From the NCBI RefSeq assembly GCF_947497025.1, contig NZ_CANMFC010000002.1:248001-312000 (forward strand): a stretch of DNA of 64,000 nt, in the 5' to 3' direction. Under the pieces are notes generated by a model. The model was not told the DNA's origin, searched no databases, and saw nothing but the letters and a program-made list of their open reading frames with translations. The stretch is from an uncultured Kushneria sp. GTDB taxonomy: Bacteria; Pseudomonadota; Gammaproteobacteria; Pseudomonadales; Halomonadaceae. The number at the start of each line of letters is the position of its first letter. Within the stretch, counting starts at the first letter, position 1. Both the position numbers and the translations under genes were made by a program. Positions 9,060 through 14,695 of the stretch are shown in pieces.

Positions 9060-9740
9060 TCAGGGGGTGGTGGCCGGCACCGAGCGCGCTGACGAGCGAG
9101 AATAGGCCCCGGTGCTCGATGCCATCTGTTCCTGACGGGTAATCTCGTGGGCAATCTGCTCACCCACGTTCTCCCAGCCCTGTGCCAGGGTGCGTACCAG
9201 CGCCGGATAGCCGTCGTCATCGAGCGGGCGTTCAATTTCGAAGGGCTGCTGATAGAGCAGGCTGCCGCCGGCGTCGCGCAGCTGATACTGCCCGGCCAGC
9301 ACCGCCATGCCGTCATAGCGGCCCTGGAAACGTGACAGCGTGACCCGCACGCCGGTATCGGCGCGGTCGCCGGCCAGGGTCTCGCCCAGCACGCGATGAT
9401 CCTTCAGTTGATCTCCCAGCGTGCGCTGCAGGCTGCGGGTGAGCTGGGCGCTCAGACTGTCGGCCCAAAGGTTGGCCTGCGCCTCGTTCACCTCGATATC
9501 GCTGGTCTGATAAACCACGCCCTGACCGTCGAGATAGTCCGCCAGCCGTACCGACGACACCGCCACCGTCGGCGCGCTGTCGGGCAACGACACCCCGGGT
9601 TCGGCGGTGGCAGCGCGCTGATCGGCCAGCGGCAGCGTATAGCGGTGAAACTCGGTGGACTGACCGGCGCAGCCGGCCAGTACCGCCAGTACCACAAGGG
9701 CTGCGCCGCGACCGGACGCGTTGAGAAATGGCATCATCAT
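9060..9740 (-). CDS. pqiC: PqiC-like outer-membrane lipoprotein
   Basis: This 226-residue lipoprotein has a signal peptide ending in the lipobox LAVLAGC (C24) and belongs to the ABC-transport auxiliary lipoprotein family (DUF330). In Escherichia coli PqiC is the outer-membrane partner of the PqiB tunnel in a lipid-transport bridge between the two membranes. Its start overlaps the pqiB stop in an ATGA, showing a tightly coupled pqiA-pqiB-pqiC operon. A second methionine pair follows the first, so the exact start may shift by one or two codons. Confidence 0.88.
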   Translation of the reverse strand: MMMPFLNASGRGAALVVLAVLAGCAGQSTEFHRYTLPLADQRAATAEPGVSLPDSAPTVAVSSVRLADYLDGQGVVYQTSDIEVNEAQANLWADSLSAQLTRSLQRTLGDQLKDHRVLGETLAGDRADTGVRVTLSRFQGRYDGMAVLAGQYQLRDAGGSLLYQQPFEIERPLDDDGYPALVRTLAQGWENVGEQIAHEITRQEQMASSTGAYSRSSARSVPATTP

Positions 9741-11383
9741 GGACGGGCCCTCGGTTGCGGATCCTGAATCTCGCCGCGATTGAAGATCAGCGAGTTGGGT
9801 TTCTCGCTGATGGTGCGCGCTGCCGGCTGCAGCGAGCGCATCAGCTGCTCAAGGCTTTTCAGTGTCGAGGTCAGCTCGCCATAGGCCGGTGCCTCACTCG
9901 AGTAGCTCGACAGCGTCTGCTCAATGCTGCGCAGCGTGCGCTGGACGTCACCGGGCAGGCCACGGGTACTCTCATCATTGAGCACTTCATTGAGGCTGCC
10001 GGCGGTCTCGTTGAGCTCATTGAGCAACGACTCGGAGCTGGCAAGCGTCGCATCCAGACGAGTGAGCGACGACTCCACCGGCAGATTGTTGAGCTTGTCG
10101 AGCAGACCGGTCACCTTCTGTTCGATCTGGGCAAAGCTGCCGGGCTCACTGGGGAACACGGCCACGCCGTTGTAATCCTTGAGTGTCTGTTCGGACGGCT
10201 CATCCACGAAATTGGTGTCCACAAAGAGTGCCCCGGTGAAGAGGTTGCCGGTCTTGAGCGAGGCGCGCAGACCATTGCCAAACATGGTGTTGATCCGCCT
10301 GCGCCACTCCTTGAGCGACTCCTCGTCCACCTTCGCCTGAAGGCGCTGCGGCTCGATGCGAATCAACACCGGAATGCGAAAGCCCTCGACCTGATTTTCC
10401 TGCAAAAGATCAATGCGGTAGGGCACGGTATCCACGGTGCCGATCCGTACGCCGCGATATTCGACCGGCGCCCCGCGCGAGAGCCCGCGCACGGTGTCAT
10501 CGATCATCACGACATAGCGCAGATAGTGACTGAAGCTGCCCTGCAGGGCGTTTTCTTCGTCGCTGTAAAGCGAAAAGACCAGATTGCTGTCGGCACCGAC
10601 CGGCTCGCCCGGCGGGATATCCTCCGGCACGCCGAAGGTAACGCCTCCGCTGACCAGCGACTCCAGCGAGCCCAGCCCCAGCGAGAAGCCCTCCGAGGTC
10701 AGATCAAAATTAATGCCCGAGGCCAGCCAGAAGCGGGTATTGCTGGTCACCAGATCTTCATAGGGCGCCTGAATGAAAAGCTGATAGTGCACCACCCGAT
10801 CCTCGGTATCGAACTCCAGATTCTCGACCCGTCCGACGGTGAACCCCTGAAACAGGACCGGATCACCGACATTGAGCGAACCGGCGGCGGCGCTGGTCAG
10901 GTGCAGCCGCAGTCCCTTGGCATCCGGCGGTGCGACAGGAGGCTGTTCCAGCATTTCAAAGCTCTCCTGAGTGTTTTCCGAATGGCCCGGCTGCAGCTGG
11001 ATATAGGCGCCCGACAGTACGGTGTTCAACCCGCTGATGCCTTCACGACCGATGCGAGGCTTGACGACCCAGAAGCGTGTCTCTTCGTTGAGCAGGCGGT
11101 CGGTGCCCGGGTTCATGCGTGCCTTGATCACGGCATGAGAGGTGTCTTCCGACAGCGACACCGAGGTGACCTCGCCCACATCCACATTGCGCGCCTTGAT
11201 CATGGTGTTGCCGGCGTCAATGCCTTCAGCATTGTTCATGATCAGCGTGATTTCCGGCCCGCGCGAGGAGAGCGTGTGATAAAGCATCCAGCCCCCGATC
11301 AAAAGCGCGATCAGGGGGATCAGCCAGACCGGTGAGATATGTCGGTGCTTTTTTCGCTGCGCGGTGGTCTCGGTCTTGCTCAT
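9737..11383 (-). CDS. pqiB: PqiB, MCE-domain intermembrane lipid transport protein
   Basis: A 548-residue protein with one N-terminal membrane anchor (about residues 18-38, HISPVWLIPLIALLIGGW) and three MlaD/MCE repeats, recognisable by GPEITLIMNNAEGID, then LRLHLTSAAAGSLNVGDPV, then VRGLSRGAPVEYRGVRIG. The last 120 residues are helical, consistent with the coiled-coil needle that spans the periplasm. It overlaps both pqiA and pqiC by ATGA. In E. coli the operon responds to paraquat and contributes to envelope integrity. Confidence 0.93.
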   Translation of the reverse strand: MSKTETTAQRKKHRHISPVWLIPLIALLIGGWMLYHTLSSRGPEITLIMNNAEGIDAGNTMIKARNVDVGEVTSVSLSEDTSHAVIKARMNPGTDRLLNEETRFWVVKPRIGREGISGLNTVLSGAYIQLQPGHSENTQESFEMLEQPPVAPPDAKGLRLHLTSAAAGSLNVGDPVLFQGFTVGRVENLEFDTEDRVVHYQLFIQAPYEDLVTSNTRFWLASGINFDLTSEGFSLGLGSLESLVSGGVTFGVPEDIPPGEPVGADSNLVFSLYSDEENALQGSFSHYLRYVVMIDDTVRGLSRGAPVEYRGVRIGTVDTVPYRIDLLQENQVEGFRIPVLIRIEPQRLQAKVDEESLKEWRRRINTMFGNGLRASLKTGNLFTGALFVDTNFVDEPSEQTLKDYNGVAVFPSEPGSFAQIEQKVTGLLDKLNNLPVESSLTRLDATLASSESLLNELNETAGSLNEVLNDESTRGLPGDVQRTLRSIEQTLSSYSSEAPAYGELTSTLKSLEQLMRSLQPAARTISEKPNSLIFNRGEIQDPQPRARP

Positions 11384-12711
11384 GGCCCCGTGTCCTGTGC
11401 TTTCCCTGCAACCACCGGCTGAGGGGATAATGTGGAAATATCGTTGTTTTCAAGGTCTGGATGATCGGCAGCGTCCCAGATCAGGCGCGGATCAAAGCTC
11501 ATGGCGGCAATCATGGTTACGATCACCACACCGCCGAAGGCGATGATGCCGGGCTCGGCAGAGATGTGCATCAATACGCCCAGCTGCACCAGCGCGGCCA
11601 GCAGGGCCACCACGAAGACATCGATCATTGACCAGCGGCCGATGAACTCGGTCACCCGATAAAGGGTCATGCGCACCTCGGGCCGCCACGGCTGAGGCCG
11701 GGCGACCTTGAGGCACAGCCAGAAAAGCGCCAGAAGCTTGGCGACCGGAATCACCACGCTGGCCAGAAAGATGATGGCGGCGATCGGATAGTCGCCATGA
11801 TCGATCAGCAGCAGAACGCCGCCGATAACCGTCTGGGTCGTCGTATCATTGAGACTCGAGACGGTCATGATCGGCAGAATCATGGCCGGGATATAGAGCA
11901 GTATCGAGACCAGCAGTAGCGCCAGGGTCTTTTGCACGCTGTGGCGGTGGCGCATGTGCAGTTTCTCGCCGCAGCGGCGGCAGTAACACGCTCGATGATG
12001 ATGATAGTCGTTGACCGTACTGCAGACCGGACAGCCGACGAGTTTCTGCGCCTGTGCGGTGCGTCCGGCGCGTGCATGCGCCGGCGGCGCAGGCTCCGGT
12101 GCCATGAGACGCCAGAGCCAGTCGCGATCCACGCTGCGCGAGACCAGAAGCATCAGCACCACAAACAGGCAAAAGGCCCAGAAGGAGACGCCAAAGCCAA
12201 TGCTGGCCAGCGACAGGATCTTGACCAGGCTCACCAGCACGCCGATTAAAAACACATCGGCCATCATCCAGTGCTCGATGTGGCGCAGGGTGCGCAGCAT
12301 CAGCATACCGCGCGGTGGCCGCCGGCCCAGTAACAGTGCACCATGGATCACGATCACCATACCCAGATAGAGCATCGGCAACAGCAACAGCACCATCCAC
12401 AGCACCACGGCCAGTACGGTGTAGCTGCCGGTCGACAGAATCGCCATGGCATCGGTCAGGCTGATGCTGCGCTCGAGACCGCGGGCAGAAAAGGAGATAA
12501 ACGGAAAGGCCAGCGAGGTGACCAGCGCCACAATCGCTGCAATGGCCAGCGCCAGCGACTGCTGGGCAGGCGCTCGCTTGCGCACCATCAGCTCATGCTG
12601 ACAGCGTGGGCAGCGGGCACTTTCCGAGCACGCCAGCGGCGGCACGGTACTGACCAGATCGCATTCATGACAGACCCGCAGGGGCTGTGAAGGCTCAGAT
12701 AGCGTGGTGAT
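11380..12711 (-). CDS. pqiA: PqiA, integral membrane subunit of the Pqi system (apparent AUC start codon)
   Basis: PqiA is the inner-membrane component, with two zinc-ribbon-plus-membrane modules. The second module has CPVCSTVNDYHHHRACYCRRC; the first needs the pair CHEC ... CPRC. The nearest conventional start (GTG at 12645) falls after CHEC and would delete half the zinc site. Reading upstream in frame gives TTLSEPSQPLRVCHECDLVS with no ATG, GTG or TTG. The codon just before this is ATC at 12711-12709, preceded by GGAGAGAACC at normal ribosome-binding spacing. I therefore place the start at ATC (443 residues). A single sequencing error (ATG read as ATC) is the main alternative. Confidence 0.8.
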   Translation of the reverse strand: MTTLSEPSQPLRVCHECDLVSTVPPLACSESARCPRCQHELMVRKRAPAQQSLALAIAAIVALVTSLAFPFISFSARGLERSISLTDAMAILSTGSYTVLAVVLWMVLLLLPMLYLGMVIVIHGALLLGRRPPRGMLMLRTLRHIEHWMMADVFLIGVLVSLVKILSLASIGFGVSFWAFCLFVVLMLLVSRSVDRDWLWRLMAPEPAPPAHARAGRTAQAQKLVGCPVCSTVNDYHHHRACYCRRCGEKLHMRHRHSVQKTLALLLVSILLYIPAMILPIMTVSSLNDTTTQTVIGGVLLLIDHGDYPIAAIIFLASVVIPVAKLLALFWLCLKVARPQPWRPEVRMTLYRVTEFIGRWSMIDVFVVALLAALVQLGVLMHISAEPGIIAFGGVVIVTMIAAMSFDPRLIWDAADHPDLENNDISTLSPQPVVAGKAQDTGP

Positions 12712-12785
12712 GGTTCTCTCCGAAGTCAGCCCGGGTCGATGTCGTTTGAAACGACCGGGGGCTACCGACCAGGGCAGGCCCCGCC

Positions 12786-12797
12786 GGTATTAATACC
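12786..12797 (-). promoter_or_regulatory. Palindrome GGTATTAATACC in the pqiA upstream region, probable promoter/operator
   Basis: A perfect 12-bp palindrome lies about 75 bp before the pqiA start. Read on the minus strand, TTGGAA lies 18 bp before TATTAA, and TATTAA is inside the palindrome, so the site could be a promoter whose -10 element is covered by an operator. A neighbouring ACTATAGT palindrome sits inside the spacer. Whether a redox regulator binds here is unknown. Confidence 0.4.
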
Positions 12798-12955
12798 TGC
12801 AGACTATAGTCCGTTCCAATGGTCAGGCACCATCGCACTCACCTGAACACGCCAGCCCCTCGATGAGGTCTGGCATATTTAAACATTCATCATGGTATGT
12901 AAATAGCATCGACGGCCATCGACGGCAAGCCGTCATGTGAACGCAACCCCTGACA

Positions 12956-14695
12956 TCAGTCATGGAGGGGGCCGGGTTGATGCCAGAGCCGGTAATAGGC
13001 GCCATCGGAATTGTCGAGCAGACGGTCGGGGGCGCCACGCTCGATCACACGCCCGGCCTGCATCACCACGACCTCATCGGCCTCGGCAATGGTCGACAGC
13101 CGATGCGCGACTACCACCATCGTGACCCGACCCTTGAGCGCAGCCAGCGCCCGGTTAAGGCGCGACTCGGTCAGGCTGTCGACGCTGGCAGTGGCCTCAT
13201 CGAGCAGCAGAATGCGCGGCTGTCGCAGCAGCGCCCGTGCCAGCGCCAGAAGCTGGCGCTCACCAGTGGAGAGCGTCAGCCCCCGCTCGCCCAGCGGTGT
13301 TTCAAGCCCGTCGGGCAGGCGATCGATCAGCTCACGCAGCTGGGCTTCATCAATGGCGCGGGCGATGGCGGCGTCATCGGCCTCGATCCCCATCAACAGA
13401 TTGTCCCTGAGCGTGGTCGAGCGAATGAAGGGCTCCTGGGGAACGCTGGCCATCACCGTATTGATCACCGAGGGTGCCAGGGTGTCGATACGTCGTCCGT
13501 CCAGCAGCAGATAGCCTATGGTGACCGGCTGCAGCCCGCCCAGCAGGTCCAGCAGCGTGGACTTGCCGCTGCCGGTGTGGCCGACCAGACCGATGAAGCG
13601 ACCTTCGGGGATCTCGAGGGTGACATCATCCAGCGTATTGGCCTCGGCGCCATGATGGCGAAATGTCAGCGCCTCGAGCCGGTAGTCAGCCGACCGGATC
13701 GCCCGGGTGTCGTCCCCGGCGGCCGCCTGCGGGCGATCCAGCAGGGAGAGCAGCCGCGTACCGGCCACGCCCGCCTGTTGAAAGATGTTAAAGCGCTGGG
13801 TGATCTCGATCAGAGGCTCGGACACGCGTCCCAGCCAGGTCACGAAGGCATACAGCACGCCGATTTCGGCCCCGCCCGCCAGGCTGTCGGCGCCATAACC
13901 AATCAGAAGCGCGGCCAGAATGATCACGCCCACCAGATCCAGCGCCGAGCGCAATAAAAGCGCCGAGATACGGATGGTATGCAGCCGGGCGTGATACTGC
14001 GCCACGTTAAGGTCGTGATAGCGCGTTCGAAAGCGCTCGGTCTGATTGAACGCCTGCAGCACGCTCATGCCGCCGATCGCCTCATTGATCCGCGCGTTCT
14101 GGCCGGCGCGCAGGCGACGCACCTCCATGGCGGCCGGACCACTGGCGCGCTGATAGGCCCAGATCACCACGGCCGCCACGGGGATCAGGGTCGCCGCGAT
14201 CAGCATCAGCTTGAGATCCATCAGCGCCATGGCGACCAGGATGCCGATCAACAGCATCAGATTCTGCAGCACGGTGGCCAGAAACTCGACGTAGAGCTCG
14301 CGCAGGTCATCGGTGTCATTGGTCACCCGCGCCACCATTTCGCCGGTGGGGGTGGCGTCATGCACGTGCTGGGGCAGATGCATGACGTGGCGAAAGACAC
14401 GCCGGCGCAGGGCATGCACGGCGTCCAGCGCAATGCGGGCAAAATAGAGCGTCTGCAGATAGCGGCCGAGGGCGGCCAGACCCTGGCTGCCGACATACAG
14501 CATCAGCAGGATGATCAGCGGCTCGGGGCGCAGATCCCGCGGAACCAGATAGCTGTCGATATAGTGCTTGGTCAGCCAGGGGCCCAGCACGTCCATGGCG
14601 GTGGCGGTCAGCAGCAGTATCAGCGCCAGCACCAGACGGCGACGGTCCTGCAACAGCGGGCGCAGCATCAGCGCGAGCAGGCGACGGTTGATCAT
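12956..14695 (-). CDS. mdlB: MdlB-like heterodimeric ABC exporter subunit
   Basis: The 579-residue half-transporter has six predicted membrane helices (about residues 1-300) and a nucleotide-binding domain with Walker [10 protein letters not shown] and Walker B ILLLDEAT. The signature motif is LSTGERQ instead of LSGGQ, as in E. coli MdlB, whose second composite ATP site is also non-canonical. The segment [22 protein letters not shown] is also MdlB-like. The ATG at 14695 overlaps the mdlA stop (ATGA), so the upstream frame to 14734 is rejected. Likely a multidrug or lipid-like exporter; the substrate is unknown. Confidence 0.87.

Follow-up and report, generated by a model that had tools for sequence, protein, structure and literature searches.

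Which codon starts the translation of pqiA is the question raised by this locus of the window, i.e. the whole stretch of 64,000 nucleotides of Kushneria DNA that was analysed. The initial annotation had remarked that the pqiA frame is devoid of ATG, GTG and TTG ahead of GTG 12645, that a start at this GTG would deprive the protein of its CHEC cysteine pair (which we take to be a putative zinc site), and that an ATC stands ahead of TTLSEPSQPLRVCHEC, and it had proposed this ATC as a rare start that perhaps keeps the level of PqiA low. The reading of the frame holds: CHEC lies upstream of GTG 12645, and from this GTG the frame runs upstream via CHEC and a short tail to the ATC at 12711-12709, the codon preceding TTLSEPSQPLRVCHEC, and on to the stop TAA 12792, with no ATG, GTG or TTG in the pqiA frame between that stop and GTG 12645. 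As set out below, comparison with relatives makes it likely that AUC is the start codon used for pqiA. The N-terminus of PqiA is then predicted to be MTTLSEPSQPLR, or TTLSEPSQPLR after removal of the methionine.

The gene is the first of three that overlap (Table 1). Its product matches PF04403 with an E-value of 2.6e-89 (Pfam) and exceeds the cut-off of the PqiA/YebS subfamily TIGR00155 (NCBIfam), but reaches 379.9 bits against a cut-off of 562 for the NCBIfam equivalog NF011683 (PRK15103, PqiA), so that the protein is filed under the subfamily and named pqiA by its operon. The order of the operon is that of pqiABC, with PqiA followed by the MCE protein PqiB and a PqiC-type lipoprotein, and the genome of the window holds a single match (E 0.001). 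The ATGA overlap between pqiA and pqiB is present in nine of the ten genomes of the genus, with G008 differing. PqiABC is described as a putative phospholipid transport system (PMC10897342).

Table 1. Positions in the window of pqiA, its start region and the downstream genes.
Feature	Position	Strand	Remarks
pqiA coding sequence, including TGA stop	11380..12711	-	443 aa; matches to PF04403 and TIGR00155
ATC, proposed pqiA start codon, read as fMet	12709..12711	-	ATC in 9/10 genus genomes, ATT in 1/10 (G008); ATC also in Phytohalomonas tamaricis
GGAG, Shine-Dalgarno core, 6 bases before ATC	12718..12721	-	invariant in 10/10 genus genomes; anti-SD duplex -6.6 kcal/mol in G000
CHEC, first C-x-x-C pair, upstream of first conventional start	12661..12672	-	no variation at either cysteine in an alignment of nine sequences (three genera)
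GTG, first conventional codon of the frame, not accepted as start	12643..12645	-	no GGAG-like string in the preceding 24 bases; does not rank among the top five in-frame positions for SD pairing
ACG, near-cognate competitor two codons downstream of ATC	12703..12705	-	9/10 genus genomes have ACG, G006 has AGC; Phytohalomonas has AAG
pqiB, overlaps pqiA stop by ATGA	9737..11383	-	NF008070 (PqiB) over cut-off; PF02470
pqiC-like lipoprotein gene, overlaps pqiB stop by ATGA	9060..9740	-	PF03886, E 2.7e-36

The main evidence comes from the genus, for which ten genomes including that of the window (G000) were compared, all of them with a pqiA (61-100% identity). All ten carry GGAG-N6-AT(C/T) at the proposed start, with ATC in nine, ATT in one (G008) and ATG in none, in agreement with the rare start put forward initially, which recurs with the same Shine-Dalgarno (SD) spacing and in the same frame in the nine other genomes (eight ATC, one ATT). 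In an ungapped alignment from the start codon the GGAG and the AT are identical in 10/10 genomes, whereas all 14 columns from -24 to -11 and all 22 from +9 to +30 show some variation, which is inflated by indels such as that of G002; the six bases directly after the ATC are also well kept (8 to 10 of 10). This conservation of GGAG and AT is more than chance, with the reservation that ten related genomes represent fewer than ten independent events. The first cysteine follows the start codon at a distance of 13 codons in nine genomes and of 11 in G002, in frame in all. As for the SD site, the GGAGAG that had been placed six bases upstream must be shortened: the spacing is right for GGAG, whereas the longer string ends four bases before the ATC. 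Six bases from GGAG, or seven as in Phytohalomonas, is the usual SD spacing, and it is found in all ten genomes of the genus.

The arrangement extends to a second genus of the Halomonadaceae. Phytohalomonas tamaricis, whose two loci (L012 and L034) are counted as one genome, has GGAG-N7-ATC ten codons from the cysteine and a stop six codons upstream, with no conventional codon in the open frame upstream of CHEC. Within the genus, the AT(C/T) choice has persisted while the PqiA proteins diverged to 61-64% identity, and ATG is never found at this column in the ten genomes though it is one base change away, so that by comparison a near-cognate start has been kept among relatives and not switched to ATG. 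Beyond the ten genomes and Phytohalomonas, a scan of 275 genomes at E 1e-150 found no other pqiA as close as these. Among the loci surveyed, the AUC start of pqiA appears to be confined to the genus and Phytohalomonas.

That the sequence behind the ATC is read as protein is suggested by its substitution pattern. Over all pairs of the ten genomes, pN/pS is 0.16 for LRVCHECDLVST, the twelve codons before GTG 12645, compared with 0.33 for the sixty-one codons from this GTG on and 0.89 for the nine tail codons between the ATC and LRV (aligned from the cysteine without gaps, with G002 out of register by two codons in the tail and the pairs not independent). The low value upstream of the first conventional codon indicates that this stretch is translated, and since the tail next to the ATC is nearly free to change, it is all the more notable that the adjoining AT and GGAG do not vary.

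Conventional codons near the start were surveyed at 112 loci, with several genomes counted twice and at most 60 codons ahead of the cysteine covered. In five rows, representing four genomes (G000, G003, G005 and Phytohalomonas), the stretch from the upstream stop to CHEC is free of ATG, GTG and TTG. The initial annotation had also named a start of the homologues at another in-frame codon as a possible refutation; within the genus, no ATG, GTG or TTG column upstream of CHEC is common to the ten genomes. Individual members do offer candidates. The strongest contrary case is G008, the genome with ATT, where an in-frame ATG lies nine codons upstream, immediately behind AGGAGG, and where the best SD duplex (-10.3) is found at this ATG and not at the ATT, so that G008 may start at the ATG. 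G002, which groups with G008 by identity to the window, lacks this ATG and has one 44 codons upstream of the start. In G006 a GTG lies four codons upstream, and two TTGs with AAGG before them lie at seven and nine codons; G001 and G009 have upstream TTGs without an SD, and G009, G004 and G007 a GTG five codons after the ATC, likewise without an SD. Outside the genus and Phytohalomonas all surveyed loci have conventional candidates, including three genomes of a neighbouring genus (L013, L032 and L033) and Halotalea, whose pqiA has an ATG behind GGAG. At some loci of the family, L015, L017, L049 and L055 among them, TTG is the only conventional start within the scanned open frame, and weak starts may be usual for pqiA. 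Taken together, the comparison yields the lack of a usable conventional start in several genomes, apparent protein constraint upstream of the first GTG, and a conserved AUC/AUU with its SD spacing; by comparison, pqiA thus appears to start at a codon other than ATG, GTG or TTG. From this we infer initiation at AUC and, further along the chain, low output, sensitivity to IF3, an effect on the whole operon and selection for weakness.

Two initiator tRNA genes were found in the genome, both with the anticodon cat, and an altered initiator tRNA was rejected on this ground. An aberrant IF3 was rejected on the alignment of residues 15-179 (to its end) with the IF-3 chain of 8jsg, from E. coli. The infC gene of the genus itself shows GGAG-N8-ATC in 10/10 genomes, and in ten further family genomes, chosen from eight genera, the codon at that place is ATC in eight and ATT in two (L114-L123 and L149-L158 are the infC loci of genus and family). 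The clade therefore appears to use AUC/AUU for infC, the textbook rare-start gene. Two codons earlier, two bases from the GGAG, seven genomes of the genus have a TTG, which could mislead annotation of infC; the same position is TTA or CTA in the other three, among them G006, where a GTG lies six codons upstream. The pcnB gene was considered as a further rare-start case and dropped, as its start region contains TTG in 10/10 genomes, with an additional GTG in G002 and G008.

With these components, initiation would proceed as follows. pqiA would be translated from AUC six bases after the GGAG, and the ordinary initiator tRNA (anticodon CAU) would pair with AUC with a mismatch at the third base. 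This mismatch would be discriminated against by IF3, leading to weak initiation and a low rate of PqiA synthesis, and AUC would be kept because a low, IF3-sensitive output is favourable. Since pqiB overlaps the pqiA stop (ATGA) and pqiC the pqiB stop, the throttle would probably extend to all of pqiABC. Strong pairing at the third base is favoured by IF3 in vitro, and weak pairs such as AUU/CAU yield less product, in a titration that does not include AUC/CAU (PMC10158994). With one set of E. coli reporters, output from AUU, AUA, CUG and AUC was 0.1-0.3% of that from AUG, whereas the same work gives 5-20% and 7-17% of AUG for two clostridia, and 40-100% when a different leader was used (PMC9680021), so that codons of this type do not always give low output. 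By analogy with infC, pcnB and sigR, low and IF3-sensitive output of pqiA is probable, and a regulatory reading of the AUC start is plausible. The whole chain, from the AUC start through to a throttle kept by selection, has about an even chance of being correct. A more specific version, in which pqiABC is wired to IF3 such that the operon rises when IF3 activity falls and stays low otherwise, with this link kept by selection in the genus and Phytohalomonas, is possible and rather doubtful.

The rival that survives best accepts the AUC start and denies it a role: drift would have led to a weak start that is compensated by transcription or context, with no regulation and no selection for weakness. 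The TTG-only pqiA loci of the family fit such a reading, as pqiA may often have a weak start, and so does pcnB, which has TTG throughout the genus (10/10) where E. coli has AUU. Against it, none of the ten genomes has G as the third base, while every column from +9 to +30 is variable, and the choice of start has persisted across protein divergence to 61-64% identity; a neutral origin is thus rather unlikely.

Improbable, though worth weighing, is a start at another near-cognate codon, chiefly ACG 12705 or CTG 12681 (three codons before CHEC), with the ATC serving as spacer. ACG occupies the same column in nine of the ten genomes and competes well in a scan for anti-SD pairing, in which the ATC shares the best in-frame duplex energy in 10/11 genomes, tied with neighbours, and in G000 the two codons that follow it, one of them ACG, reach the same value. 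The preference for ATC therefore rests on the spacing from GGAG, six bases versus twelve, and not on duplex energy. In addition, ACG is replaced by AGC in G006 (where an ACG lies one codon further) and by AAG in Phytohalomonas, and its use would entail a second-base mismatch, where the first two bases are reported to tolerate only Watson-Crick pairs (PMC10158994). CTG precedes CHEC in most genomes, but is CTT in G004 and CTC in Phytohalomonas and has no SD in the three genomes scored.

A start at GTG 12645, which would leave PqiA without its first C-x-x-C pair and without VCHECDLVSTVPPLACSESAR, is very improbable. This GTG is the first conventional codon in the G000 frame, and a GTG is found at the same distance from the ATC in 7/11 genomes and two codons nearer in G002; however, the column is GTA in G007 and ATA in G006, no SD-like string precedes the GTG, and the block upstream of it is constrained (pN/pS 0.16), and neither cysteine varies among nine sequences of three genera. 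Just as little credit is due to initiation in a different frame followed by programmed frameshifting, or to coupling with an upstream mini-ORF, as a way of feeding the pqiA frame. In Phytohalomonas a short ATG ORF, read by eye, crosses the ATC in another frame. In G000 and G005, by contrast, all three frames lack ATG, GTG and TTG between -60 and +42, so that a nearby out-of-frame start followed by a frameshift has no codon to begin from; the leader is poorly conserved among the aligned leaders, and folding of five sequences revealed no shared RNA structure at the pqiA start (z -1.37 to 0.42). Finally, a sequencing or assembly error turning ATG into ATC, raised initially as a general possibility, can be dismissed, because the same column is ATC in eight other genomes of the genus and ATT in a ninth, and is ATC in Phytohalomonas as well.

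Two features of the leader lie further upstream. A palindrome at 12783-12800, behind a TATAGT-like element, is a possible operator near a transcription start, and GGTATTAATAC is present in 5/9 aligned leaders. Far upstream of the start, at about 12880-12907, the stretch CTATTTAC(A/G)TACC...GAATGTTTA is kept in six close species among the nine aligned leaders and is possibly a promoter or operator.

How exceptional pqiA is within its genome was estimated by a base-rate scan of 464 kb of G000 against stretches of three relatives, covering 426 selected ORFs. The test needs at least 12 upstream codons and at least 5 synonymous differences and misses short or very conserved cases. Of these ORFs, 223 looked coding and had at least two orthologues, and 17 were flagged, five of them without an in-frame conventional codon upstream in G000: pqiA, pqiB and three others. 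The flag of pqiB is explained by its upstream region overlapping pqiA; one of the other three lies under an opposite-strand ORF, one has a TTG after AAGGAA that overlaps the end of another gene, and one has a non-coding-looking, indel-bearing upstream region. pqiA is the only one of the five that is not explained by an overlapping gene or a non-coding upstream region. Among the remaining 12 flagged ORFs, eight were set aside on account of a conventional codon in G000 and four were inspected, two of which look like conventional starts. The third (121287; G000:C2 near 121 kb, L162 about 13089-13185) is a PQQ-dependent dehydrogenase gene (PF01011) with an A-run near the ATG and a frame that is off by one relative to G009 and G003, either an assembly error or a real frameshift. 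The fourth (G000:C2:313547; L169 near 1500-1560) has coding-looking sequence and a TTG upstream of the first shared conventional codon, and its length differs from that of its relatives at the junction with the preceding ORF; it may represent a frameshift or a rare start. A scan of the window alone, run without the constraint test, gave late first shared codons in other ORFs too.

Among known systems, pqiA resembles infC, which combines a near-cognate AUN start with a proper SD, as in the GGAG-N8-ATC of the same genus, and which starts with ATC in Streptomyces as well (PMC5472188). The two differ in that infC encodes IF3 and is autoregulated, whereas pqiA is an envelope transport gene and would be controlled by IF3 in trans. 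Like pqiA, pcnB of E. coli has a rare start (AUU) outside the initiation factor genes, and this AUU limits pcnB expression according to the title of a work cited in PMC9410913; gene and codon are different, however, and pcnB has TTG in 10/10 genomes of the present genus. The sigR gene of Streptomyces offers a further likeness, with a conserved non-canonical start in the first of two translationally coupled genes of an oxidative-stress system; its GTC start is repressed by IF3 and replacement of the GTC overproduces SigR (PMC5472188). In contrast to pqiA, sigR encodes a regulator and starts with GTC, and repression by IF3 is experimental there and conjectural here. The pqiA of E. coli is likewise the first gene of pqiABC, but its annotated start is AUG, unlike the AUC here, and lies in an initiation site AUGUG of which both AUG and GUG were usable in an in vitro reporter (PMC9841429).

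The AUC start of pqiA is very probably real and would add a new gene to those with a start of an already known type. Within the open-licence PMC literature, where most matches are visible as listings, no report of an AUC start of pqiA was found. Few natural bacterial AUC/AUU starts are known beyond infC and pcnB, which have been called the only two AUU starts in E. coli (PMC9410913), and annotation limited to ATG, GTG and TTG is reported to misplace such starts (PMC5472188); for pqiA, the first conventional start would cost a conserved cysteine pair. A test for protein constraint upstream of the first conventional codon, where none is in frame, is simple enough to be applied to whole clades. 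If the proposed start is true, pqiABC is an envelope lipid-transport operon under the same AUC start class as infC of the same genome, and a genus-wide case in a transport operon would extend the genes that IF3 may control.
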